This document shows, piece by piece, positions 1,860 to 31,683 of a DNA stretch of 38,605 nucleotides. The stretch covers positions 1 to 38,605 of the IMG/VR virus record IMGVR_UViG_3300047496_000097; one strand, 5' to 3'. Below the pieces are notes generated by a model that was given only the letters and a program-made list of their open reading frames with translations, did no database searches and was not told where the DNA came from. The position numbers and the translations under genes were made by a program. The DNA is from a virus. Each line of letters begins with the position of its first letter. The stretch's first letter is position 1.

Positions 1860-2051
1860 TCACCACCCCTCCCGATACGGATTCTCCATCGCCAAGTGAG
1901 GCGGGGTGCGCGTGATCCGTAGCGCCGCATCAAGTTCGCGGGCGCGCCGCTCCTGGGCTTTGGCTTCCTGCTTCCAAAATTGCACCGCTGATTCCAGGGC
2001 GAGGATGCGAGCCTGCATCATGCTGCGGTCGTCCACGTCGCAGCCGCTCAC
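1860..2051 (-). CDS. Hypothetical coiled-coil protein, 63 aa
   Basis: The GTG at 2051 overlaps the csrA stop as GTGA, so translation is probably coupled to csrA. Residues 11-45 are a continuous amphipathic helix rich in Ala, Gln, Glu and Arg ([20 protein letters not shown], then [11 protein letters not shown]), a likely coiled coil. The tail is [13 protein letters not shown]. Similar small helical proteins recur in this operon, but none has an assignable function. Confidence 0.6.
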
Positions 2052-2233
2052 GCCGACTCCTTCGCCAACCGCTCGGCCTCGATGCGCTCGTGGACCTCCT
2101 CGCGATTGACGGGGATATGTCGCGGCGCGTGCACGCCCAAGCGCACTTGCTGGCCGTTCACACCCAAGACGACTACCTGGATGTCGGCCCCGATCAGGAT
2201 CGTTTCACCGATGCGGCGCGTCAGGACGAGCAT
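2048..2233 (-). CDS. csrA: CsrA/RsmA-family carbon storage regulator (phage-encoded)
   Basis: The 61-aa product matches CsrA over its full length: [15 protein letters not shown] at the start, [18 protein letters not shown] in the middle and [14 protein letters not shown] near the end. CsrA is a small dimeric RNA-binding protein that recognises GGA motifs in mRNA leaders and changes translation or stability. The RNA-contact residues known for the family are present: L4, R6, R7, V42 and R44. The ATG at 2233 lies 8 bases after GAGGAG and matches the family start, so the upstream GTG at 2242 is not used. The gene overlaps both neighbours. The operon just downstream has repeated GGA-containing ribosome-binding sites, which makes phage targets as likely as host targets. 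Confidence 0.93.
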
Positions 2234-2454
2234 GTGGCCCACTCCTCGAATTCATTGAACAACCGGCTCACCTCGGCGCGCGACAAGACGATTTCATCGA
2301 CGCCACCCTCAAGATCGCGTTGCCTTAAGTGCAGGTAGCCGTCATCGATGGACGCATCGATACCCCAGGCCGCCTCGATCTTGAGCGCCGGCGTCGCGAC
2401 CGCTGCGGAGATCGCGGGCGCCTTCGCCGCTGCTTTCGGTTTCGCTGTAGTCAC
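2221..2454 (-). CDS. Hypothetical protein, 77 aa
   Basis: The GTG at 2454 follows GGGGGGGTAGC and overlaps the preceding stop as GTGA. The N-terminus is Ala/Lys-rich ([13 protein letters not shown]). The C-terminal half reads as a small beta-helix domain ([20 protein letters not shown], then [15 protein letters not shown]). It overlaps the csrA start by 13 bases, so the two genes are probably co-translated. No family was recognised. Confidence 0.6.
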
Positions 2455-4316: not shown

Positions 4317-4495
4317 AGATCCCTCCAGTCTTTGGTGCCCTTGAACGCGCCCATGTTGTAGCGATTAAGCTCGGCATTGCGGATGAACTCATCGCGCCGT
4401 TTGAGCCACTCCAAGAACCAGCCGCACGCGAGGTCGGCGGCGTAGAGCAGCACGGCCAGGATGAAGCAGCCCCATGCGATCTTGCCGGCGGTCAT
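4313..4495 (-). CDS. Small membrane protein, 60 aa
   Basis: Starting at ATG 4495 (ATGA overlap with the alanine-repeat gene), the protein has one strong hydrophobic segment at about residues 6-28 (IAWGCFILAVLLYAADLACG), followed by a charged region (LKRRDEFIRNAELNR). It is a likely single-pass inner-membrane protein. A much longer frame continues upstream through the 12-bp repeats as GRSVGRSV..., but that part is a shadow of the repeat. Function unknown. Confidence 0.6.
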   Translation of the reverse strand: MTAGKIAWGCFILAVLLYAADLACGWFLEWLKRRDEFIRNAELNRYNMGAFKGTKDWRDL

Positions 4496-5376
4496 GGCTG
4501 CACCCGGATCATGCGTGCGACCAAATCGAGGGCGCTTGCTTGCAGCCATGCGGTCGTCGGCTTCAGAAATTCCCCCGCTGCGTCCCACGCTGCGTCCCAC
4601 GCTGCGGCCCGCGCTGCGGCCGTTGATGCGTCCCGCGCTGCGGCCCGCGCTGCGGCCGTTGATGCGTCCCACGCTGCGGCCCCCGCTGCGGCCCACGCTG
4701 CGGCCCACGCTGCGGCCCACGCTGCGGCCCACGCTGCGGCCCACGCTGCGGCCCACGCTGCGGCCCCCGCTGCGTCCCACGCTGCGGCCCCCGCTGCGTC
4801 CCGCGCTGCGGCCCACGCTGCGGCCCACGCTGCGGCCCGCGCTGCGGCCGTTGATGCGTCCCGCGCTGCGTCCCGCGCTGCGTCCCACGCTGCGTCCCAC
4901 GCTGCGGCCCGCGCTGCGGCCGTTGATGCGTCCCGCGCTGCGGCCGTTGATGCGCCGGCCGCCGTGGCGCCCGCCATGTCGAGGATTTCAGGAAGGTCGC
5001 GCAGCGCTTGTGCATGCGCCGCCAATGAGGGCGTCAGATCCAGCCATTTCGGCGTATGGACGCGGATCAGCCAGTCGAGCGCCATGTACGAGCGGCGCTC
5101 CTCCACCGCTTTGGTTGAGCGCGTGTCGACGAGTTGCTCGATGAGCGGCTTCAGCAGCCGGTCGCGCTCCGCATCGCTCGGCAGCGAATCGTTCCACGCC
5201 ATCAGGAAGGAGGTCAGTACCGGGCATGCGCACTGCGGATGATCGGACCAAGGCTCGCCAGCGATGTAGGCGACCGCTTCCATCACGCACATACCGTGTT
5301 CGAAATCCTCGTGATTGCCGCTTTTGAGCGACAGCGCTTCTATTTGCCGGAAGCGTTCGGCGAGCATCGGGCTCAC
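4492..5376 (-). CDS. Alanine-rich tetrapeptide-repeat protein, 294 aa
   Basis: The first 130 residues form a normal globular sequence (SPMLAERFRQIEALSLKSGN, CVMEAVAYIAGEPWSDHP, then SYMALDWLIRVHTPKWLDLTPSLAAHA). I recognise it from a family of uncharacterised phage and prophage proteins. Residues 139-266 are about 32 tetrapeptides of the type AAAW, AAAR, DASTAAAR or AAAG, encoded by 12-bp units. The protein ends with a short helical cap (EFLKPTTAWLQASALDLVAR). The start is GTG 5376 in a GTGA overlap. Because units are a multiple of three bases, unit number can change without shifting the frame. No catalytic motif is visible. A long helical rod is a reasonable structural guess. Confidence 0.8.
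   Translation of the reverse strand: MSPMLAERFRQIEALSLKSGNHEDFEHGMCVMEAVAYIAGEPWSDHPQCACPVLTSFLMAWNDSLPSDAERDRLLKPLIEQLVDTRSTKAVEERRSYMALDWLIRVHTPKWLDLTPSLAAHAQALRDLPEILDMAGATAAGASTAAARDASTAAARAAAWDAAWDAARDAARDASTAAARAAAWAAAWAAARDAAGAAAWDAAGAAAWAAAWAAAWAAAWAAAWAAAWAAAGAAAWDASTAAARAAARDASTAAARAAAWDAAWDAAGEFLKPTTAWLQASALDLVARMIRVQP
4577..4960. repeat. Tandem array of 32 twelve-bp units
   Basis: On the plus strand the unit is GCTGCGGCCCAC with variants GCTGCGTCCCAC, GCTGCGGCCCGC, GCTGCGGCCCCC and GATGCGTCCCGC. The period is exactly 12 from 4577 to 4960, i.e. 32 units. Units are mosaic: a block containing GCTGCGGCCGTTGATGCGTCCC recurs near both ends, which suggests repeated duplication and exchange. 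The array lacks stop codons in most frames, and this produces long false reading frames on both strands. Confidence 0.92.
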
Positions 5377-14658: not shown

Positions 14659-17280
14659 ATGAGCGCATTCAAATATCTCAACGACGCCACCATCGGGGCT
14701 GGCGCCGTGACCACCAATGTATTGCCGGCGCCGACTGCGGTCGCGCCAGGGACGTGGGCCTACGATTCGGTGTCGGGGCCTGTATGGTGTAGCGGCAGCT
14801 CCTGGGTCCCGCTGTCCACCAATTCGGGCACAACCAACATCTTTTTGAGCGCGTGGCCCGGCATCGATGCGACCGGAGTCACCGATTCGCGCGCCGCGCT
14901 CGCGGCCGCGCTGGCATTCGTCGCCGGAACCAACAATACCCTGGTGGTCGACTGCCCATGCTTGATCTCGGTGGGAACGGACCTCACGAAAACGATCTTC
15001 GTGGCCTCTGGCACCAACCTCGATTTCACCTCGACCGGCGCCTTCATCATGGACGCGCACGGCATTCCGACCTTCGCCTTTATTGGCGTGACGAATTGCA
15101 CCTGGACCGACTATACCGTCCGCTACATCGGCAACCCCGGCTCGGTGATGCTGCAGTACACCGGGACGTGGGCGACCAACAACGGCAATTGGAACACGCT
15201 CACCCTCACCAACTATCTGAAGGCGAACAACGGCAACAGTTTCAGCGGAGCGACCGCGATCTGGCCCGGGCCGACCAACACTTCGGCACTGCACTACATC
15301 GGGGGCGCCTCGAGCAACATCAACTTTATTGGCAGTTGCAGCGCCACCGCCGTGTATGCAACGGCCGATCGCTTCATCCCCGTGCTCTTTTCGATCAATG
15401 TGCAGTGGCTCTACGGCCAGGCCGTCACGTCGGGGACGGTCGTCAATTCATCGACGGCTGCGCAGCCCACGAATATCTGCTTTGACGGCTGGACCTCCGA
15501 CGGCGTCTACATGACGATGGTCGGAGGCGGCGGAAACATCAAGATCCGTAACTGGGTGTCGCTGCGCTACGGCGATCTGGAAGATTCCTCAGGCAACAAC
15601 CAAGGCGGCATCGGCACGACGAGTGGCCGATCGGGCAACCAATGCAGTGATCAGTGGTTCGCCCCGCCGCACTTGTTCTACCTGCAGTCGGGCAACTCCT
15701 CGTTCGTCTGCAGCGTTGATTACGCGAATATCTTGGATGAGGGGATCTACACCTCAAACAATGCGAATTACGGCTCTCGCCGCGCCGTCACCTCGGGCTA
15801 TATCAACTCGCTAAAATTCGACGCGAGCGGCGTGACGACAGTCACCAACTACATCTCCAAGAGGCCCGATGGTTTCTGCGATGTGCTTTCGCAGTCCTCC
15901 GGTGCCATCGCCCCGGGCTGCTTTATGGAGAACGTCAGCGTCTATCTCGACTGCGGCGTGGGTGGGTTCTATACGACGGTGAGCGCCGCCGGCGCGGGAT
16001 CTACGTCGTTCACCATTACGCCCGCCAACTGGATGTGCAACAACAGCGGGGGCAGTTACGCTGGCATCGCGAGCGGCACCTATCCCACGACGTTCAGCAC
16101 CGGGGAGGTTCGTGCTGTCACCTATACGGTGACGGTGGTCGGAAATTCCGCGACTGCCATCAGCGCCTCATGGACGCAGCCGCTTCTGAACGCCAACACC
16201 ACGTTGGTCAGGATCGGCGTCACCAGCGCCGGCCGCTTTGCGTTCCGCTATCCCGGCGCCTCGATTCAGAATGTCTACCTGAAGAACGTCAAGATTTTCG
16301 ACTCTTCGTTGTTCCCCTATTGTTGGCCGCTGCTGTCCGACTCCTCTGTCGGGCATGTCAACTTCTTCGTCAACTTTGAACTCATTGTCCAAGATTATCC
16401 GACCATCGCGACCTACACCCCGGGCTTCGGGATCGCGGGCGAGGGGATCAGCCTCAAGACGAAAGTGATCTTCCTGAACTGCTCCTCGACTCAGACCTTC
16501 CGCGGCCCGATCGCCAACGTCAGCTCGACGCCGACATTCGACCATTACAGCGAAGTGGAACTGTACGGCTGGCGCCAGACCTCGATCACCTTCCAATCCG
16601 CGCCAACCGGCACCTCGGCCAATATCCTAACGGCGATGTGGCCGACCGGCGTCACAGGCTGGATCTATCCGAGCGGCACCTACAACGTGCTGTTCAGCGA
16701 CAACGAGGTGCGCGCGGTTACGTTCACCAATGGCTCGGCGGCCTGCACTTGGTCGGGAGCGCTTTCAGGCACGCCCACCGTATCGGCGCAGGTATGCCTC
16801 ATCAACTCGGCCCAGTTCGATGCCTTCCGACCGCGGATCCAGTTGCCGCAAACCAACGGCCTCGTCAACTTCGGCGTGCGCGCCAAGGTGATTGACGTCA
16901 GTAATGGCGGTGAGTTCAACATCAACCAGGGACTGCTCGAGGAGAGCTGGACGCAGTTCTGGCAGGGCACGCCGCCCGCCGGCGCCACCTACACGACGCC
17001 GATCACGTACCCCACGACCTTCGCGATCGACCGGGTCTCCTGGGGTGTGACCACCAACTTCGGGACGATCTCCAATATCAACGTGGGCCAGGTGGGTGGC
17101 TCGGCGACGGCGTTCTTCACGGGCGTGAACGTCACCACGGGCGCGCAGGCGCCGCGGCCCATCGCGACGCCGGTGACGGTGACGGGGGCTGTCTTGCTGA
17201 CCCCCAACGTCAGTTTCGACGGCACCGGCGTCGGCGTCGTGTCGACGCGCGGCGTGCGTACGAACCTGGGGCCTGCATAG
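14659..17280 (+). CDS. Tailspike 2, beta-helix type, 873 aa
   Basis: The N-terminus (MSAFKYLNDATIGAGAVTTN, then YDSVSGPVW) is paralogous to tailspike 1, so both probably dock at the same virion site or on each other. The long central region begins with a motif typical of these spikes (AWPGIDATGVTDSRAALAAA, as in pectate-lyase-like heads). It continues with beta-helix turns (IKIRNWVSLRYGDLEDSSGN). The last 250 residues, with ATYTTPITYPTTFAIDRVSW, look like a separate beta-sandwich. This is likely a second polysaccharide depolymerase with another specificity. Confidence 0.8.
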   Translation: MSAFKYLNDATIGAGAVTTNVLPAPTAVAPGTWAYDSVSGPVWCSGSSWVPLSTNSGTTNIFLSAWPGIDATGVTDSRAALAAALAFVAGTNNTLVVDCPCLISVGTDLTKTIFVASGTNLDFTSTGAFIMDAHGIPTFAFIGVTNCTWTDYTVRYIGNPGSVMLQYTGTWATNNGNWNTLTLTNYLKANNGNSFSGATAIWPGPTNTSALHYIGGASSNINFIGSCSATAVYATADRFIPVLFSINVQWLYGQAVTSGTVVNSSTAAQPTNICFDGWTSDGVYMTMVGGGGNIKIRNWVSLRYGDLEDSSGNNQGGIGTTSGRSGNQCSDQWFAPPHLFYLQSGNSSFVCSVDYANILDEGIYTSNNANYGSRRAVTSGYINSLKFDASGVTTVTNYISKRPDGFCDVLSQSSGAIAPGCFMENVSVYLDCGVGGFYTTVSAAGAGSTSFTITPANWMCNNSGGSYAGIASGTYPTTFSTGEVRAVTYTVTVVGNSATAISASWTQPLLNANTTLVRIGVTSAGRFAFRYPGASIQNVYLKNVKIFDSSLFPYCWPLLSDSSVGHVNFFVNFELIVQDYPTIATYTPGFGIAGEGISLKTKVIFLNCSSTQTFRGPIANVSSTPTFDHYSEVELYGWRQTSITFQSAPTGTSANILTAMWPTGVTGWIYPSGTYNVLFSDNEVRAVTFTNGSAACTWSGALSGTPTVSAQVCLINSAQFDAFRPRIQLPQTNGLVNFGVRAKVIDVSNGGEFNINQGLLEESWTQFWQGTPPAGATYTTPITYPTTFAIDRVSWGVTTNFGTISNINVGQVGGSATAFFTGVNVTTGAQAPRPIATPVTVTGAVLLTPNVSFDGTGVGVVSTRGVRTNLGPA

Positions 17281-18869
17281 TGAGCATTCGGTTCGCCCCC
17301 TTCGTGGGCGCAGGCTATACCCCTCCCGGCGTCGGGCCGCCTGGGCAAGTCACCAACGCGGTGGCGACCGCCGGCAACGCGAGCGCGCAAGTATCGTTCA
17401 GCGCAGGCTCCAATGGCGGCAGCGCCATCACGAGCTTCACGGCGACCTCGAGCCCGGGCGGCAAGACCGGAACGGGCACCACATCGCCGATCAACGTCTC
17501 AGGGCTATCCAATGGCACGGCCTATACCTTCACCGTCTACGCCACGAACGCCTTAGGCAACGGGCCTGCGTCGGCCGCATCGAACTCAGTGACTCCGGCT
17601 GGCGGCACGACAGGCTACACGGGCGCCATTTCCCGCAACGGGAAGAACTTCGTCAACGGGACGGGCGGCAGCGGTTCGATCATCCAGTTGCGCGGTTTCA
17701 ACCTGTCGGGCATGGAGAATTCCCCGATGCAGGGGTTTCAGCCCTGGGCGGATGACGGCGGGGTGCCCGACTGGGCTGGAATCCAAACCTGGAAACCGAA
17801 TGTCGTGCGAATCCCCCTATGCTCGGCGAGCTTCTTGGGCCGCACCATCACCAATACGGCGACGCTCACGACCTGGGGCGCTTCGCGATCGGCCGACCCG
17901 TTCGGCAATTACGTCGCCGCGGTCGACGCGGCGGTGGCCGCGGCGCAGGCGGTCGGCTGTTACGTGATCCTCGATCTGCACTGGACGTGCCCGCAGATCA
18001 CTCTGAATTCGACCACGAACTATCTCGCGAACGCGGGGCAGAGCGCCTTTGCGGATCAGGACTGCATCGCCTTCTGGACGGCGATCGCGACCCGCTACGG
18101 CACGCAGGCGACGGCGCAGCCCGGCATCAACAACAACGGCATCCTGTTCGAACTGTTCAACGAGCCATTTTGCAACAGCTTCTCGGGCACCTGCACGACG
18201 GGACCCAATGGCACTGGCTCGCCGATCGATGACAAAGACGTGTTGATGCTGAACGGCGGGTATTCGAATCTGATCGCGAACAACAGCCAGGGCGGTAGCA
18301 ATTTCAGCCTGACGGCAAATTGGCAGGTCGCCGGCTATCAGCAGATGCTGAACGCGATTATCGCCACCGGTGCGCAGAACGTCTGCATCATCAACGGCAA
18401 CCAGTACACGCAGCAGACCAAGAATTACCTGAAGTACCTGCCGACCGACTCGCGCAATCAACTCGCGATCGGCTGGCACGCCTACCCTAACGCGCAAAGC
18501 TACGCGAACGAGGTGGCGGGCAATATCTGGCCCTGCGACGGGTTCACGGCGAACGACACGCCGAACCCGGCCGCTTTCACCGATGCGCTGGCGATCCTCA
18601 CTGCCGGCCTGCCGCTGATTGCCACCGAATGCGGTTCCTGGGGCGGCACGACCTGCACCTCGGGCTCGCCGCAGGTATCGAAATTGGTGGCGATGGCCGA
18701 CAGCAACGGATTTTCCATCGTCGGCTGGCAATTTAACGCGCCGCGCACCGCGGGCCAGGTGATGGCGAGGTATTACCTCAATGTGTTCAACAGCGGATCC
18801 AGTGGCCCGTATGTGCCGATCTTAGGATATGGCACGGTGCTCAACGCTTGGATGACGGGCCACGCATGA
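17280..18869 (+). CDS. FN3-GH5 glycoside hydrolase (endoglucanase-like), 529 aa
   Basis: Residues about 20-107 form a fibronectin type III domain (GQVTNAVATAGNASAQVSFS, ending NALGNGPASAASNSVTP). From about 115 on the protein matches glycoside hydrolase family 5: IIQLRGFNLSGMENS, VILDLHWT with H234, LFELFNEPF with acid/base E295, GWHAYPN with H400 and Y402, IATECGSWG with nucleophile E450, and VGWQFN. GH5 enzymes cut beta-1,4-glucans and related polymers by a retaining mechanism. GTG 17280 overlaps the spike 2 stop, and the gene ends in ATGA with the portal, so it belongs to the late operon. It lacks the shared spike N-terminus and has no signal peptide. It is most likely a virion-borne or lysis-released polysaccharide depolymerase. 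Confidence 0.88.
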   Translation: MSIRFAPFVGAGYTPPGVGPPGQVTNAVATAGNASAQVSFSAGSNGGSAITSFTATSSPGGKTGTGTTSPINVSGLSNGTAYTFTVYATNALGNGPASAASNSVTPAGGTTGYTGAISRNGKNFVNGTGGSGSIIQLRGFNLSGMENSPMQGFQPWADDGGVPDWAGIQTWKPNVVRIPLCSASFLGRTITNTATLTTWGASRSADPFGNYVAAVDAAVAAAQAVGCYVILDLHWTCPQITLNSTTNYLANAGQSAFADQDCIAFWTAIATRYGTQATAQPGINNNGILFELFNEPFCNSFSGTCTTGPNGTGSPIDDKDVLMLNGGYSNLIANNSQGGSNFSLTANWQVAGYQQMLNAIIATGAQNVCIINGNQYTQQTKNYLKYLPTDSRNQLAIGWHAYPNAQSYANEVAGNIWPCDGFTANDTPNPAAFTDALAILTAGLPLIATECGSWGGTTCTSGSPQVSKLVAMADSNGFSIVGWQFNAPRTAGQVMARYYLNVFNSGSSGPYVPILGYGTVLNAWMTGHA

Positions 18870-25493: not shown

Positions 25494-26210
25494 ATGGCGC
25501 TGCTGGATCTGGTTCAGTCTGTCGCGATCAAGGTGGGCCTGACCGCGCCCGCGGCTGCCATCACATCGCCTGACCAGAATATCCAGCAGATCGTCTACTT
25601 TGCGAATGAGTCCGGCCAGGAGCTCGCGCACCGCTTCCCCTGGCAGGCGCTCACCAAGGAGGCGACCTTCGTCACAGTGGCGACCGAATCGCAGGGCGCC
25701 CTCGCGACGCTGACAGGTCCCGATTTCGTGAGCATCGTGAACGAAACGATGTGGGACCGCTCGACGAAGCGCCCGGTATTCGGCCCCAAGGTGCCGGCCG
25801 AGTGGCAGCAGTTGAAGGCCCAGTTCGTCAACGGCCCCTGGTCGCAGTACCGCATCCGCGGCAACCAGGTGCTGTTCATCCCGGTGCCCGCGGCCGGCGA
25901 TAACATCTACTTCGAGTGGACGAGTAACTATTGGGCCTCGACCGCCGCAGCCCCGACCGTTGGCGCGCAGAAGGCCTTCGCGACCGACACCGATATGTCG
26001 CTGCTCTCGGAGCGGGTGATCCTGCTCGACACCGTCTGGCGGTACAAGCAGACGAAGGGCCTCGATTACAGCGAGGACTACGATAAAGCCGAGGGGGCGA
26101 TCGCGGACCTGATGAGCCGCGATGCCAGCAAGCCCACGCTGAACCTCTCGGGGCCGCAAGGGAACATTCAACCTGGGGTTTGGGTTCCGAGCGGGAACTG
26201 GGGCCACTGA
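25494..26210 (+). CDS. Head-tail connector (adaptor) candidate, 238 aa
   Basis: It directly follows the upstream stop. Features include LDLVQSVAIKVGL at the start, YFANESGQELAHRFPWQALT, and a beta-rich core (YRIRGNQVLFIPVPAAGDNI) with YKQTKGLDYSEDYDKAEGAI near the C-terminus. The layout fits gp4/gp11-type adaptor proteins below the portal in podoviruses, including FANE and PWQAL-type motifs near the N-terminus. The call is by resemblance and position. Confidence 0.7.
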   Translation: MALLDLVQSVAIKVGLTAPAAAITSPDQNIQQIVYFANESGQELAHRFPWQALTKEATFVTVATESQGALATLTGPDFVSIVNETMWDRSTKRPVFGPKVPAEWQQLKAQFVNGPWSQYRIRGNQVLFIPVPAAGDNIYFEWTSNYWASTAAAPTVGAQKAFATDTDMSLLSERVILLDTVWRYKQTKGLDYSEDYDKAEGAIADLMSRDASKPTLNLSGPQGNIQPGVWVPSGNWGH

Positions 26211-27769
26211 TGGCGATCGGCCTCGCACGCCGCGCCTCGCCGCAGACGCGGCGGCAGTCGGCCGTCATCAAGTCGGTCATGGCGCCCACCGGCGGCGTGA
26301 ATGCGCGCGATGCGCTCGCGCATATGCCAGAAACCGATGCGATCGTGCTCGACAATTGGTTCCCCACTCCGTCCTGCGTCGCGGTTAGGAATGGCTCCCA
26401 GGCCTGGGCCACCGGCATGACGAACCCGGTCGAGACGGTGGCGGCGTACAACGGCTTTACGACCCGCAAGCTGTTCTCCTGGGCCGGCGGTAAAATCTAC
26501 GACACCACGGCCGCGGGCGCGGTCGGCGCGGCACTGATTACGGGCCTCACGAATTCGCGCTGGCAGACGGCCATGTTCAACGCCGGCGGCGGCAACGTGC
26601 TGGTGGCCGTCAACGGCGCCGATGCGCCGCTCTGGTACAACGGCACGACCTGGGCGACGACGACGATCTCGGGCACCAGCCTCACGGCCTCGAATCTGAT
26701 CACCGTGACGGTATTTAAACAGCGTTGCTGGTACATCGAAAACAACACGATGAACGTCTGGTACTCGGCCGTGACCGCGTTCCAGGGCGCGCTTACCGTG
26801 CTGCCCTTGGGCGCCATCTTCAAGATGGGCGGGTATCTCATGCAGATGGCGACGTGGACGATCGACAACGTCTCAGGCATCAACGACTACGCGGCCTTCA
26901 TCACCTCCGAAGGTGAGGTCGCGGTCTATCAGGGCTACGACCCCAGTTCGATCAGCACCTGGTCCTTGGTCGGGGTGTTCCGGGTCGGGCGCCCAATTGG
27001 CCGGCGCTGCATCACCAAGTTCGGCTCTGATGTGCTGGTGATCTGCACGGACGGTCTCGCGCCGCTGTCGAAGGAGCTCCTGACCGATCGCACGCAGCCC
27101 GACGCACTCCTCACCAACAAGATCATCAACGCGATCAACAATGACGCGGCAAGCTACGGCAGCAATTTCGGCTGGCAGTGCATCGAGCATCCGCTCGGCA
27201 ATAAGCTGATCCTGAATGTGCCGGAAGTGACGAACACGACGTCGCACCAGTGGGTGATGAACACCGTCAGCACCTCGAATGCGTGGTGCCGCTTTCGCAA
27301 CTGGAACGCGAATTGCTGGGAGGTACAGCAGGACAGCCTGTACTACGGCGGCAATGGAGGGACCCTCTATCTCGCGGACGTCGGCACGACCGATGCCGGC
27401 GGGGCTGCAATTCTCGTCGACGCCAAGCCCGCGTTCTCCTATTTCGACTCAATGACGCAAAAGCGCTTCTTGATGGCGCGGCCGAATTTCGTATCGAGCG
27501 CGGTCATTGGGGTGCTCCCGATCACGCTGAATGTGGATTTTAACGACGTCAGCAACGTGACGCCATTTTTCAACACCGGCACGACGGCGCAGTGGAACGT
27601 CTCGAATTGGGACACCGGCCCCTGGACGAGCGTGCTGTCGCAGAACAATTGGCTCGGAGTCTCGGGGATCGGATATGCGGCCTGCGGGCGACTCACCTTC
27701 CAGATCTACGGCGTCTCGGTCCAATGGCAGAGCATCGACTACATGTTCGAGCCCGGCGGCCCGCTCTAG
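26210..27769 (+). CDS. Tail hub/DNA-stabilisation protein candidate, 519 aa
   Basis: ATG 26210 overlaps the preceding stop (TGATG). The N-terminal segment APTGGVNARDALAHMPETDA, then IVLDNWFPTPSCVAVRNGSQ, is characteristic of a podovirus tail protein found next to the adaptor. The following beta-rich region (MLVAVNGADAPLWYNGTTW in context) and WNVSNWDTGPWTSVLSQNNW suggest a beta-propeller-like ring. It is likely a tail-tube component closing the head. Confidence 0.7.
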   Translation: MAIGLARRASPQTRRQSAVIKSVMAPTGGVNARDALAHMPETDAIVLDNWFPTPSCVAVRNGSQAWATGMTNPVETVAAYNGFTTRKLFSWAGGKIYDTTAAGAVGAALITGLTNSRWQTAMFNAGGGNVLVAVNGADAPLWYNGTTWATTTISGTSLTASNLITVTVFKQRCWYIENNTMNVWYSAVTAFQGALTVLPLGAIFKMGGYLMQMATWTIDNVSGINDYAAFITSEGEVAVYQGYDPSSISTWSLVGVFRVGRPIGRRCITKFGSDVLVICTDGLAPLSKELLTDRTQPDALLTNKIINAINNDAASYGSNFGWQCIEHPLGNKLILNVPEVTNTTSHQWVMNTVSTSNAWCRFRNWNANCWEVQQDSLYYGGNGGTLYLADVGTTDAGGAAILVDAKPAFSYFDSMTQKRFLMARPNFVSSAVIGVLPITLNVDFNDVSNVTPFFNTGTTAQWNVSNWDTGPWTSVLSQNNWLGVSGIGYAACGRLTFQIYGVSVQWQSIDYMFEPGGPL

Positions 27770-27770
27770 G

Positions 27771-28172
27771 CTGATCGTCGACGATCACGAGAGGGTCGCC
27801 GATTGGTGCGAGGCGCGCATCGAGCACTTCGCCGGCTGGGGCTCGGACCCTAAGGCGATCGGCCTCGAGGTGGGCGGGATGCTCCGGGCAGCGGTGGTCT
27901 ATACGAACTACAGCCCGGGCAACGTGTTTGCCACGATCGCGGTCGAGGGGCGCATGAATCGCCGGTTTTTGTACGCGATTTTCTACAACCCTTTCATCGC
28001 CTGGGGCGTGCGCCACATTACGTGTGCGATCGAGGAAAGCAATGTCAGGTCGCTTAGGCTCTGCACGAAGATGGGCTTTCAGCAGGAAGGGCGGCTGCGC
28101 GAGTCGGCAGTCAACGGCGAGGATGTGATCGTCATGGGTATGCTTAAACGGGAATGCAGGTTCATCCAATGA
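27771..28172 (+). CDS. GNAT acetyltransferase-like protein, 133 aa (unusual start)
   Basis: The protein matches GNAT-fold acetyltransferases: MLRAAVVYTNYSPGNVFATI, then FNPFIAWGVRHITC-like core and EESNVRSLRLCTKMGFQQEG, the acetyl-CoA region, ending MGMLKRECRF. No ATG, GTG or TTG lies where the family normally begins; CTG 27771, two bases after the upstream TAG, would give L-I-V-D-D-H-E at the start. Upstream in-frame codons belong to the other gene. Similar GNAT genes occur in the tail block of several podoviruses. The target is unknown; it could modify a virion or host protein. Confidence 0.7.
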   Translation: MIVDDHERVADWCEARIEHFAGWGSDPKAIGLEVGGMLRAAVVYTNYSPGNVFATIAVEGRMNRRFLYAIFYNPFIAWGVRHITCAIEESNVRSLRLCTKMGFQQEGRLRESAVNGEDVIVMGMLKRECRFIQ

Positions 28173-29158
28173 AAATCATCACGCGCGCGGTGCTCGATTG
28201 GGATGGGAACATCCTCGAGGAGGACTCGTACGAGTACCGCGGACCCGTCGCCGCGTGCAAGGATTCGGGATCTTCGCCTCAACCCGTCGATCCCTACACC
28301 CAGGCCGCAGCGCAGTATGGCCTCGACACCGGCAGCGCCAATTACAACGCCGCGCTTAATCGCACGAACTCATCGAACCCGTTGGGGTCGAATACGTGGA
28401 GCGTGACGGGTTACGACGGCAGTGGCGCCGGGGGCATCCCTGGGACGAACAGCGGCACCGTGACGCCGCGCACCGGATACCTCGGCGGCGGCGGCGGCGG
28501 CGGTTTCGGCTTGGGCGGCGGGGCGCCCGCGACGAGCACCGGCACGATGGGACTCGGCGGCGGGACGGGCGCGCCCAAGTACACGCAGACGACCTCGCTC
28601 ACCCCTTGGGCAAATCAGATGCTGTCGAGCCCGATCAATACGTCGGGGATCGCCGGGATGCCCGGCGGTCCGTCGACCACGGCCGACCTCAACACGACGC
28701 GAAACGCGCTCTACAACGAGCAGGAAGCGTATATCCAGCCGCAGCAGGCCCAGGCGCATGAACAGTTGCTCTCGCAGCTCGCCAATGAAGGGGCGACGCC
28801 GGGCTCCCAGGCGTGGCAGACGGCGCTCGACCAAGAGAACCGGCAGAATACGTTCACCAACAATCAGACCATCAACTCGGCGATTACCGGCGGCGGCGCG
28901 GAGCAGTCGCGGCTGTTTGGGCTGGGATCTCAGAGCCTGCAGGATCAGCTGTCGACCCGCAGCGCGCCGATCTCCGAGTATGAGGCGCTGCAGGGCAATC
29001 CGTCCGCGCAGGTCAATGCGGCGACGCCGGATATCTCGGGCGCGTTCGGCCAGCAGTACCAGGGCCAGCTCGCCGGCTACAACGCGAACGTGGCGACCAA
29101 TAACGCGAACACCGGTACCGTCGGCTCCCTCGCGCTCGCGGCGGCGATATATTTCTGA
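28169..29158 (+). CDS. Virion/tail assembly protein, Gly/Gln-rich, 329 aa
   Basis: ATG 28169 overlaps the GNAT stop. The N-terminus (MKIITRAVLDWDGNILEEDS) is followed by a Gly-rich linker (GGGGGGGFGLGGG near residues 110-122) and a helical, Gln/Asn-rich part (EAYIQPQQAQAHEQLLSQLA, then NEGATPGSQAWQTALDQENR). The C-terminus ends in LALAAAIYF. This composition and position are usual for internal virion or tail proteins of podoviruses. Specific function not known. Confidence 0.7.
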   Translation: MKIITRAVLDWDGNILEEDSYEYRGPVAACKDSGSSPQPVDPYTQAAAQYGLDTGSANYNAALNRTNSSNPLGSNTWSVTGYDGSGAGGIPGTNSGTVTPRTGYLGGGGGGGFGLGGGAPATSTGTMGLGGGTGAPKYTQTTSLTPWANQMLSSPINTSGIAGMPGGPSTTADLNTTRNALYNEQEAYIQPQQAQAHEQLLSQLANEGATPGSQAWQTALDQENRQNTFTNNQTINSAITGGGAEQSRLFGLGSQSLQDQLSTRSAPISEYEALQGNPSAQVNAATPDISGAFGQQYQGQLAGYNANVATNNANTGTVGSLALAAAIYF

Positions 29159-29865
29159 TGGAGGCGCTCCACTTTGGCGGCGGCAGGGATTCACTTGCGT
29201 GTCTGTATTTGCTGCGTCCGCGGTGGCCTGAAATTACCGTCGTGTGGATGAACCCGGGCGCGCCGTTTCCCGAGACCGTCGCGCAGATGGAGGCGATCAA
29301 GGCAGTGGTGCCGAATTTCCTTGAGGTGCGTGCTGATGTTCTGACGAACATCAAGAATCACGGGTGGCCTACCGATGTCCTGCCAGTGAGAAACGCGTAC
29401 TGGGGCAAGCAATCGACTGGTGAGACCGGGATCATGATGCAGACATGGTTCGACTGCTGCTCAAATAGCTTCTGGTTTCCGATGCAACGCAAGATGCATG
29501 AATTGGGCGTGACCAAAATTTACCGGGGGCAGCGGCTTTCGGAAGATTACAAGTCACCGATGCGAAGCGGCCAGATCGTTGATGGCATCACCTACGAATT
29601 TCCGTTGGAGAATTGGAGCGAGCAGCAGGTATCCGACTATTTGACCGAGCAGGGGGTCAAGATTCCCGCGCATTACGCGCACACGCAGAAGTCCCTTGAT
29701 TGCTGGTGCTGCACGGCTTACCTCGATGCCAAACTTGATCAGTTGCAATACCTGAAAAACAGACACCCCGATAAATACGAAATCGTTGCGGCAGCACTCA
29801 CTGAGATGCGCGCCGCGGTGCGCGCTGCCGGCGTGCCCCTGATGACCACCGAGGATTTGATATGA
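29158..29865 (+). CDS. APS/PAPS reductase-like protein with a [4Fe-4S] cysteine pattern, 235 aa
   Basis: The protein belongs to the adenine-nucleotide alpha-hydrolase group: EALHFGGGRDSLACLYLLRP carries a modified PP-loop (G7-S12, GGGRDS), followed by TVVWMNPGAPFPETVAQME, typical of PAPS reductase. Cysteines C100-C101 and C182 to C185 give CC-X80-CxxC, as in [4Fe-4S] APS reductases; C184 is extra. The family reduces adenylyl-sulfates or activates sulfur for nucleotide modification (CysH, DndC). ATG 29158 overlaps the upstream stop (TGATG), and the gene lies among virion genes, so its product is made late. Sulfur metabolism or DNA sulfur modification in infected cells are possible roles; an altered PP-loop makes activity uncertain. 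Confidence 0.8.
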   Translation: MEALHFGGGRDSLACLYLLRPRWPEITVVWMNPGAPFPETVAQMEAIKAVVPNFLEVRADVLTNIKNHGWPTDVLPVRNAYWGKQSTGETGIMMQTWFDCCSNSFWFPMQRKMHELGVTKIYRGQRLSEDYKSPMRSGQIVDGITYEFPLENWSEQQVSDYLTEQGVKIPAHYAHTQKSLDCWCCTAYLDAKLDQLQYLKNRHPDKYEIVAAALTEMRAAVRAAGVPLMTTEDLI

Positions 29866-30131
29866 GCATGGACCCCGGAATGATGCAGCAAATCTTAGCG
29901 CAGGCGATGAGCGGCGGCGGCCAGCAGCAGCCCGCGATGGGCGGCATGGTGCCCCAGGTAAGCCCGCTCCAGGCGGGCGCCGATCTCGCCCGTAAGGCAA
30001 TGCTCATCAGTGCTCTGCGTCAGACGCCGCAGCAACCCCGGCCGCAGCCGATCGCGCAGGCGAACCCGGCGCTGCAGCAAATGAACCCGATGACGCCGCC
30101 CAACCCGACACCGGGCATGCAAAATGTCTGA
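29862..30131 (+). CDS. Met/Gln/Pro-rich small protein, 89 aa
   Basis: ATG 29862 overlaps the preceding stop (ATGA). The sequence is low complexity: MSMDPGMMQQILAQAMSGGG at the start, a short helix (GADLARKAMLISALRQ), and a Pro/Gln-rich tail (TPPNPTPGMQ). Small genes of this type precede the large ejection proteins in podoviruses and may encode an internal virion component. No fold can be assigned. Confidence 0.6.
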   Translation: MSMDPGMMQQILAQAMSGGGQQQPAMGGMVPQVSPLQAGADLARKAMLISALRQTPQQPRPQPIAQANPALQQMNPMTPPNPTPGMQNV

Positions 30132-31683
30132 CGCTACGCCGTTCCCCTATCTCGACCCGGGTCAGGCCCCGGCGTGGCTCGACGTCCAGCGCAAGCAGCA
30201 GCTCGCGCAGATGCTCATGGGCGCATTCCAGCAGTCGAACCAGTCGCCGCCCGAGTGGAACTCAATGCGCCAGGTGCCGAAGCGCGGGGCGCTTGGGACG
30301 GTGGCATCGCTCGCCACCGCATTGATGGCGGGCAAGGCAAACAACAGCGCGCTCGACTCCCAGCGCAATTACATGATGGGCCTGTTCGGCGGCGGTCAGC
30401 CGCAGCCCTCGACGGGCCCGGGCGCCGGCATCGTCTCGCCCGACGCACCGCCAGCCGCGCAGGACGCCGCCCAAGCCGTCACCTCGGGCAATGTGCAGCA
30501 GCCGGGTGCGGTTTCGCCGCCGAGCAATCCGCTGATCCCGATCCCGAATGGCATGGGACGCGGCACCGCGAATGCCGTGATGGCCGCAATGGGGCCGGTC
30601 GAGTTCATGAAGTCGTTCGTGGCGCCGCAATTCGCGCGTACCGACATGATGAAAAACGACGCCTATATGGGTCTGACGCCGCAGCAGCGCAAAGTTGCGA
30701 CACTCTCCGATGCGCTGCGCGGCGCGGTCGTCCCCGGCAGTACGGCTACGCTCGGGTTGGATCCCTCGGGTAACGTGACGCCAAACCTGATTCCCGGGCT
30801 ACAGGGCAATGAAGCGGCGTTGCAAGCCGCGACTACAGCAGCGACGCAATCGCAGACTCCGCATGAGGTCAAGGACGCCCAGGGGCGCCCATCGTTTGAG
30901 TACACCACGCCGCCTGCGCTGCGAGGCGTTGGCGCGGGGATATCGGCGACCGGCGCCTCTGGCGGGGGCGGTTTGCAGACGACCGCGGGCGCGACCTCGC
31001 AGGCTGAATTCGGCAAGCAGGGCGCGGCCTACAACGAGCAGATCAATGCGGATGCCGAGAACGCGATCCAGGGCAAGCGCACGCTCTCCGAGATGGGAAA
31101 CCTGCTTCAAGGGTTCAATCCAGGGAAGGGCGCGCCCGTGCTCTCGGCGATCGGCAGCGTGGCTCAGGCCATGGGCGTGCCGGCTGAGAAGGTCGAAAAG
31201 TTCACGAACATGAACGTGGGCGACACGGAGGCGTTCCAGAAAGGAACGGCGAATCTCGCCGCCGAAGCCGCCAAGCAAATGACCAACAAGGTGACGCAGC
31301 AGGAATTCAAGGTCTACCTCGCCAACAACCCCAATTGGATGATGACGCCCGGCGGCATCAAGAAAGCGATGGATTTCATGGGCAAGGGCTTTGACCAGAC
31401 GCTCGATAAACAGGCGATGTGGCAGCAATTCACGAAAGACCCGAAGAATGACCCCGGCCGCTACTCGATCGATTTTCCCGCCTACTACAACGCGCAGACG
31501 CGCGCAAAGGTCGCCGCCGGCGGCCTGAATTCCTCACCCGTCGAGAAGATCCCCATTCGCACGCGCGCCGATATGGAAGCCGCGGCGGCGAAACCGGCGC
31601 CGCCCGTTGGCACCATCATGCAGGGGCACAAGTACCTCGGCGGGCCGCCCGGCGATCCGCGCAGTTGGCAGCAGGTACAGTAA
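30124..31683 (+). CDS. Internal virion/ejection protein candidate, 519 aa
   Basis: It overlaps the preceding gene by 8 bases. The N-terminal part has a hydrophobic helix-like stretch (GTVASLATALMAGKANNSA), a Pro/Ala-rich linker and a helical core (NEQINADAENAIQGKRTLSE, LGNLLQGFNPGKGAPVLSA in sense). C-terminal features include FLANNPNWMMTPGGIKKAMD-like segments and a proline-rich end (PPVGTIMQGHKYLGGPPGDP). Internal proteins forming the DNA ejection conduit have such size and place; the sequence shows no lytic motif. Confidence 0.7.
   Translation: MSDATPFPYLDPGQAPAWLDVQRKQQLAQMLMGAFQQSNQSPPEWNSMRQVPKRGALGTVASLATALMAGKANNSALDSQRNYMMGLFGGGQPQPSTGPGAGIVSPDAPPAAQDAAQAVTSGNVQQPGAVSPPSNPLIPIPNGMGRGTANAVMAAMGPVEFMKSFVAPQFARTDMMKNDAYMGLTPQQRKVATLSDALRGAVVPGSTATLGLDPSGNVTPNLIPGLQGNEAALQAATTAATQSQTPHEVKDAQGRPSFEYTTPPALRGVGAGISATGASGGGGLQTTAGATSQAEFGKQGAAYNEQINADAENAIQGKRTLSEMGNLLQGFNPGKGAPVLSAIGSVAQAMGVPAEKVEKFTNMNVGDTEAFQKGTANLAAEAAKQMTNKVTQQEFKVYLANNPNWMMTPGGIKKAMDFMGKGFDQTLDKQAMWQQFTKDPKNDPGRYSIDFPAYYNAQTRAKVAAGGLNSSPVEKIPIRTRADMEAAAAKPAPPVGTIMQGHKYLGGPPGDPRSWQQVQ

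Follow-up and report, generated by a model that had tools for sequence, protein, structure and literature searches.

The window analysed here is a 38,605-base IMG/VR virus record taken at its full length, whose annotation recognises a CsrA-like regulator, an exonuclease VIII-like gene, a repressor-like gene, a primosomal protein, a terminase, a portal, a major head protein and an integrase. Judged by its sequence, the source is a temperate tailed phage. On the plus strand, an ORF with an ATG start (29158..29865; 235 aa) encodes a PP-loop protein with an APS-reductase-like set of four cysteines, as identified from the reading frame, profile matches, alignment and a structure model. The protein matches Pfam PF01507 (PAPS_reduct; E 1.5e-11, above the cut-off) and phrog_424, named "phosphoadenosine phosphosulfate reductase" (E 5e-27).

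The initial annotation had described this ORF as carrying the PP-loop GGGRDS and the cysteine pattern CC-X80-CxxC, and all of these are present exactly as it gave them. The PP-loop (G7-G-G-R-D-S12; residues 7-12) is encoded at 29176..29193 (+), the first half of the predicted [4Fe-4S] ligand set (C100-C101) at 29455..29460 (+), and the second half (C182-W-C184-C185, in a DCWxCTAY motif) at 29701..29712 (+). The spacing among C100, C101, C182 and C185 is exactly CC-X80-CxxC. C184 is an extra cysteine, absent from the initial annotation, and is not conserved.

Two other features of the window were observed. A glycosyl hydrolase family 5 cellulase with a fibronectin type III domain (17280-18869) lies among the virion/tail genes and is possibly a host-surface polysaccharide depolymerase. 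A 12-bp repeat, CCCACGCTGCGG, is present in 31 copies at 4572-4945, inside an Ala/Trp-rich minus-strand ORF (4492-5376) in a region where several frames are open.

The late-operon slot and its optional cargo

Structural and ejection-type genes lie on both sides of the PP-loop gene, all of them on the plus strand. The upstream genes are a tail stabilisation-like protein (26180..27769; phrog_5107, identified by profile and position), a GNAT-like acyltransferase (27675..28172; phrog_4470), the true start of which is probably near 27765, where homology begins, and, immediately before the PP-loop gene, a virion structural or ejection-type protein (28154..29158; phrog_6121, identified by profile and context). 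The label "amidase, lysis" of phrog_5107 is probably wrong for the first of these, and the gene at the same position in MW202489 is annotated as a phage stabilization protein. Downstream, there are a small virion-operon protein of 89 aa with homologues in relatives (29862..30131), a virion-operon protein of 519 aa that is conserved by homology (30124..31683) and a large protein of 702 aa with a homologue in contig L174 (31684..33792). The gene is thus placed amid virion genes, as had been noted from the start, and its placement in the late operon is borne out by these flanks together with the overlap of its start with the upstream stop.

In the window, the ATG of the PP-loop gene overlaps this stop by one base (TGATG). 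The start overlaps the upstream stop in 87 of 97 homologous loci, by one base in 67 (T(A/G)ATG or similar) and by four bases in 20, an upper estimate since the procedure picked the start nearest the stop; the motif itself is visible in the sequence. The order of stabilisation protein, GNAT or phrog_22172, virion protein and PP-loop gene was found in 80 of 101 loci. Where the upstream sequence exceeds 2.6 kb, 51 loci have the stabilisation protein, the phrog_4470 GNAT and the virion protein, and in 22 more phrog_22172 replaces the GNAT. GNAT, virion protein and PP-loop gene also follow each other in BcepIL02, in a Chromobacterium phage-plasmid and in most viral contigs, and the upstream protein in the phrog_22172 group matches a "DNA ejection protein" family.

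The phrog_22172 proteins, a conserved family of about 120 aa, take the GNAT position in one phage group (L070:608-970, L099:4700-5050, L081:4612-4977). They were considered as diverged GNATs or gp13 homologues and showed no profile similarity. The GNAT itself was considered as a homologue of T7 gp13, which lies between genes 12 and 14, and the profile comparison was not significant, leaving a positional analogy only. In two loci, the PP-loop homologue has another position: directly before the terminase large subunit gene (L034:31-729), and in the same pre-terminase position with a frame that looks split (L032:6001-6699). Lessieviruses carry a trio of CsrA, GNAT and "PAPS reductase" (PMC9144972), and the CsrA-like regulator of the window is located at 2048-2242 (-).

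In virion proteomics of phage JC1, gp64, encoded between the GNAT and the "PAPS reductase", was detected, and the published protein list has no entry for gp63 or gp65 (PMC9144972 Table 6). JC1 gp64 is the Lessievirus counterpart, at the same position, of the protein encoded at 28154..29158, and gp65 is the orthologue of the PP-loop protein. A role of the latter as a virion component is therefore unsupported, and its most likely site of action is the infected cell. Late placement alone is no evidence of a virion role, given that the gene is optional and JC1 gp65 was undetected in virions.

In order to see the slot independently of the PP-loop gene, relatives were collected via the stabilisation gene, 48 of which had enough downstream sequence. 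GNAT and virion protein are present in all 48 and the PP-loop gene in 6, these counts being approximate because the window itself, as well as loci of contigs already in the analysis, is part of the set. In L160, L163, L164, L169 and others without the PP-loop gene, the homologue of the 29862 gene begins no more than 12 bases past the virion-protein gene. In three relatives, the slot is filled by a gene related to PF14518 iron-containing redox enzymes of the haem-oxygenase-like type (L174:9719-10258; L162:6779-7321; within 4462-5142 of L165), recognised by profile and identity. The PF14518 match has an E value of 1.5e-7 in L162 and is below the Pfam cut-off in L174; the slot genes of these two are 65% identical, and that of L165 matches both. 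The PP-loop gene is therefore an optional accessory gene, and the slot, which holds the PP-loop gene, a PF14518-type gene or nothing, is a small hotspot for one-gene cargo.

The phage family is widespread. When 185 bacterial genomes were searched with the family profile, the sole full-length match came from G001, the genome that supplied locus L015, where it sits in a prophage-like cassette. The other matches were weak and mostly partial, and both of those whose complete sequence was examined (L142, L144) are ordinary ECGLH-bearing reductases. The longer reading frames of L015 and L087 (432 and 532 aa) were rejected as gene fusions, since they look as if the frame merely continues backwards into the gene upstream. 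In a Comamonas phage-plasmid (L029:4452-5714), the PP-loop domain follows an additional N-terminal domain of 183 aa; its RefSeq name, "methyltransferase type 11", was not adopted, the 183 aa giving only a weak and suggestive CmoB match (E 0.044).

Conserved residues and reductase hallmarks

A first alignment contained 12 homologues with 25-40% identity to the window protein and showed 13 invariant residues, including G8, G9, D11, S12 and the four cysteines. A scan of a viral collection with two short patterns then gave 433 relatives, 80 of which were kept, and the final alignment comprised 100 sequences. In this alignment G8, G9, D11, S12, C100, C101, C182 and C185 are each 100% conserved, C15 is conserved at 96% and the family-specific W106 at 94%, while position 184 is a cysteine in 15% only. 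The loop reads SGG(K/R)DS in 97 of 100 homologues and GGxDS in all of them, GGGRDS being the variant of the window. Because the patterns used in the scan covered parts of the P-loop and CxxC, these two were in part selected for; the CC pair and W106 lie outside the patterns. Since the 12 homologues aligned before the scan show the same invariants, the invariance of CC, P-loop and CxxC goes beyond this bias, and the motif conservation is far beyond chance. The gene is under strong purifying selection: across 172 homologue pairs, dN/dS has a median of 0.095, with a maximum above 1.

An AlphaFold2 model of the window protein has a mean pLDDT of 95.1. Judging from the fold, the four conserved cysteines, sufficient in number for the predicted [4Fe-4S] cluster, would come together in space. 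In Foldseek searches, sulfonucleotide reductases (CysH) were the best matches among solved structures (TM about 0.5-0.56), followed by TtuA (an Fe-S tRNA thiolase), QueC and CysD; the best match in the viral library was an uncultured phage "CysH" (TM 0.92). The GGxDS loop of all 100 homologues, the model and the fold matches together place the protein in the PP-loop superfamily, which is defined by an SGGxDS-type loop and a Rossmann-like fold. Profile searches also matched SspD (E 9e-7) and, weakly and over the C-terminal part, QueC (PADLOC; E 1e-4) and CBASS Cap9 (E 5.8e-5). Maximum-likelihood phylogeny unites the phage sequences in a single clade (100/98). A long branch divides it from the reductases, with DndC and SspD on the same side as the clade; this deep placement is tentative, as long branches may attract.

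For comparison with true reductases, 15 genuine APS reductases from bacterial genomes of the class of G001 were used as controls. The C-terminal catalytic ECG(L/I)H is found in none of the 100 phage homologues, whereas all 15 controls (as ECGLH) and E. coli CysH have it; 92 of 100 homologues have no cysteine whatever C-terminal to CxxC. The lysine of the CCxxRKxxP / NKVEP segment, four places past CC, is likewise absent from all 100 phage homologues and present in 15 of 15 controls, the CC of the phage family being followed mostly by xxNxWxP instead of xxRKxxP. The phosphate loop is of the ATP-pyrophosphatase type, SGG(K/R)DS as in DndC and SspD, while most reductases have a SFGAED-type loop. 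The cluster motif of APS reductases, CC-X~80-CxxC, is present in the window protein (X80; X75-82 in homologues, X79-87 in the controls). The curated reductase models gave scores far short of their cut-offs for the window protein (22.7 of 235.3 bits for TIGR02055, 20.2 of 165.1 for TIGR00434), and a search of the window and four related records for a sulfite-reductase domain found none.

An identity as APS/PAPS reductase was rejected on account of the missing ECGLH, the missing lysine and the ATP-type loop. Of the initial description as an APS-reductase-like protein, the fold and the four-cysteine set stand, while a role in sulfur assimilation as a reductase is not supported. As far as its sequences tell, the family is a clade outside the reductases, known already under the misleading name "PAPS reductase".

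Proposed function and competing explanations

We propose, as slightly better than an even bet, that the gene product is a phage-specific N-type ATP pyrophosphatase with a predicted four-cysteine [4Fe-4S] site, not a sulfate reductase, and that it is optional late-operon cargo acting in the infected cell. ATP would be bound in the GG(K/R)DS loop and the substrate adenylylated by the PP-loop enzyme, after which a nucleophile, most likely sulfur from host cysteine-desulfurase chemistry, would displace AMP to leave a thiolated or otherwise modified substrate. The Fe-S site may be structural or sulfur-delivering. The enzyme would be produced late in the infected cell and not be part of the virion. 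Its gene is single-gene cargo in a fixed slot of the operon for late ejection proteins; the phages that carry it are temperate and probably podovirus-like, and the stop-start overlap couples it to the upstream virion-protein gene. The sequence hallmarks and their invariance, the predicted fold, the lack of reductase features, the slot, the overlap and the optional status are shown here; binding of a cluster, the chemistry with ATP, transfer of sulfur, expression late in infection and the site of action are inferred. We found no paper that tested a member of the phage family biochemically.

Neither a cysteine desulfurase (Aminotran_5) nor a sulfite-reductase domain is encoded by the window or four related records, so that any sulfur used must be supplied by the host. 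Sulfur transfer fits less well than plain adenylylation, because the four cysteines are kept as in APS reductase, compared with three in DndC (PMC10853773). Thiolation of nucleic acid, or modification by sulfur activation, had also been suggested for this protein, and it is a possible function within the class favoured by our analysis.

As a specific alternative, the protein might be a DNA or RNA thiolase, with a DndC/SspD-like action on phage nucleic acid or a TtuA/TtcA-like one on host tRNA, for instance to escape restriction. The PP-loop as in DndC and SspD, the SspD profile match, the side of the tree on which the phage clade lies and TtuA among the fold matches point this way, and an optional, cargo-like distribution suits counter-defence. 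We consider it unlikely, for no cysteine desulfurase occurs in the five records and no DNA-targeting partner among the annotated window genes, DndC and SspD have a single cysteine before CxxC where the phage family has CC, and a late gene is odd timing for a DNA-protective mark unless applied before packaging.

Instead, the gene could be a moron, neutral or of benefit to the host, that occupies an insertion site the phage tolerates and whose product has no part in the phage cycle. It is optional, an unrelated PF14518-type iron enzyme takes the same slot in L162, L165 and L174, the orthologue in JC1 was assigned to the moron genes in the description of that phage (PMC9144972), and the CSP3 paper reports that the PAPS reductase of phage 186 is non-essential. 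The strong purifying selection speaks against this explanation, coupling to the late operon would probably keep the gene off in a lysogen, and the one full-length match in a bacterial genome lies in a prophage-like cassette; on balance the probability is low.

Still less probable, in our judgement, is a modifier of the ejection apparatus that, perhaps with the GNAT, modifies the adjacent virion protein, as QueC-like Cap9 and QatC do on protein N-termini. In most homologues the PP-loop gene is stop-start coupled to this virion-protein gene, which, like the weak QueC and Cap9 matches, is in line with it, and protein conjugation by the QueC family, in CBASS and qatABCD, is published (PMC13279940). 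However, virion protein and GNAT occur without the PP-loop gene in 42 of 48 close relatives, which makes any such modification dispensable, and the gene order alone may merely mirror the insertion slot. A broader speculation, to which we likewise give little weight, is that a late phage enzyme carries out an undescribed modification (adenylylation or thiolation, perhaps with the GNAT), its target being either the neighbouring ejection protein or DNA before packaging, and that the slot is a hotspot where iron-dependent modifying enzymes (PP-loop Fe-S or haem-oxygenase-like) replace one another.

A genuine APS/PAPS reductase, an auxiliary metabolic gene boosting host sulfur assimilation in infection or lysogeny as published for Lessieviruses (PMC9144972) and for "viral cysH", is very improbable: the Pfam and PHROG names, the CysH fold neighbours, a cysteine spacing within the range of real APS reductases and an NTG..FPE segment resembling DTG..FPET of reductases are outweighed by the absent tail and lysine, the ATP-type loop, the NCBIfam scores far below every cut-off and the lack of a sulfite-reductase domain in the five records.

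Many virome studies score viral "cysH" genes as auxiliary metabolic genes that drive sulfate assimilation. Where the phage PP-loop family is included, such counts are probably misleading, because the family lacks residues of the known reaction. New here are that the family lacks the features of a reductase, that its slot is optional and coupled to the gene upstream, and that another iron enzyme can occupy this slot.

Relation to known PP-loop systems

The nearest described proteins are the Lessievirus "PAPS reductases" (BcepIL02 gp67, JC1 gp65, DC1, BcepMigl, CSP3; phrog_424), with 39% identity, the same cysteines and PP-loop, the same slot after GNAT and virion protein, and ECGLH missing too. 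The difference is mainly one of annotation, these proteins being published as acting in sulfate reduction (PMC9144972).

APS reductase (CysH, TIGR02055) shares the fold, CC-X79..87-CxxC, a W-(S/T)-x-x-x-V segment and a (D/N)TG..FPE-type segment with the phage family, whereas the latter lacks ECG(L/I)H and the lysine of CCxxRKxxP and has SGGKDS in place of the SFGAED-type loop. In APS reductase, all four cysteines bind the cluster.

DndC and SspD resemble the phage family in the SGG(K/R)DS loop, CxxC, the lack of ECGLH and the side of the tree. They differ in a single cysteine (RWCT...K motif) before CxxC, where the phage family, a distinct clade of its own, has CC without the lysine; no Dnd/Ssp partner was seen among the annotated window genes. 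The DndC cluster is described as bound by three cysteines (PMC10853773), which would leave an open iron.

CasCysH of type IV-B CRISPR-Cas systems also has a CysH-like fold with a PP-motif; it carries an SGGxDS loop and no catalytic cysteine, and was argued to be an ATP alpha-hydrolase (PMC8175902). It is CRISPR-linked, and its likeness to the phage protein is by description, not by sequence. The QueC family (QueC, Cap9, QatC) shares the PP-loop ATP pyrophosphatase fold and the weak C-terminal profile match, whereas similarity is low and no queuosine-type pathway gene was seen among the annotated window genes. The [4Fe-4S] tRNA thiolases of the TtuA/TtcA type have the same combination of PP-loop and Fe-S architecture, but are about 300 aa long, with a different cysteine arrangement and extra domains.
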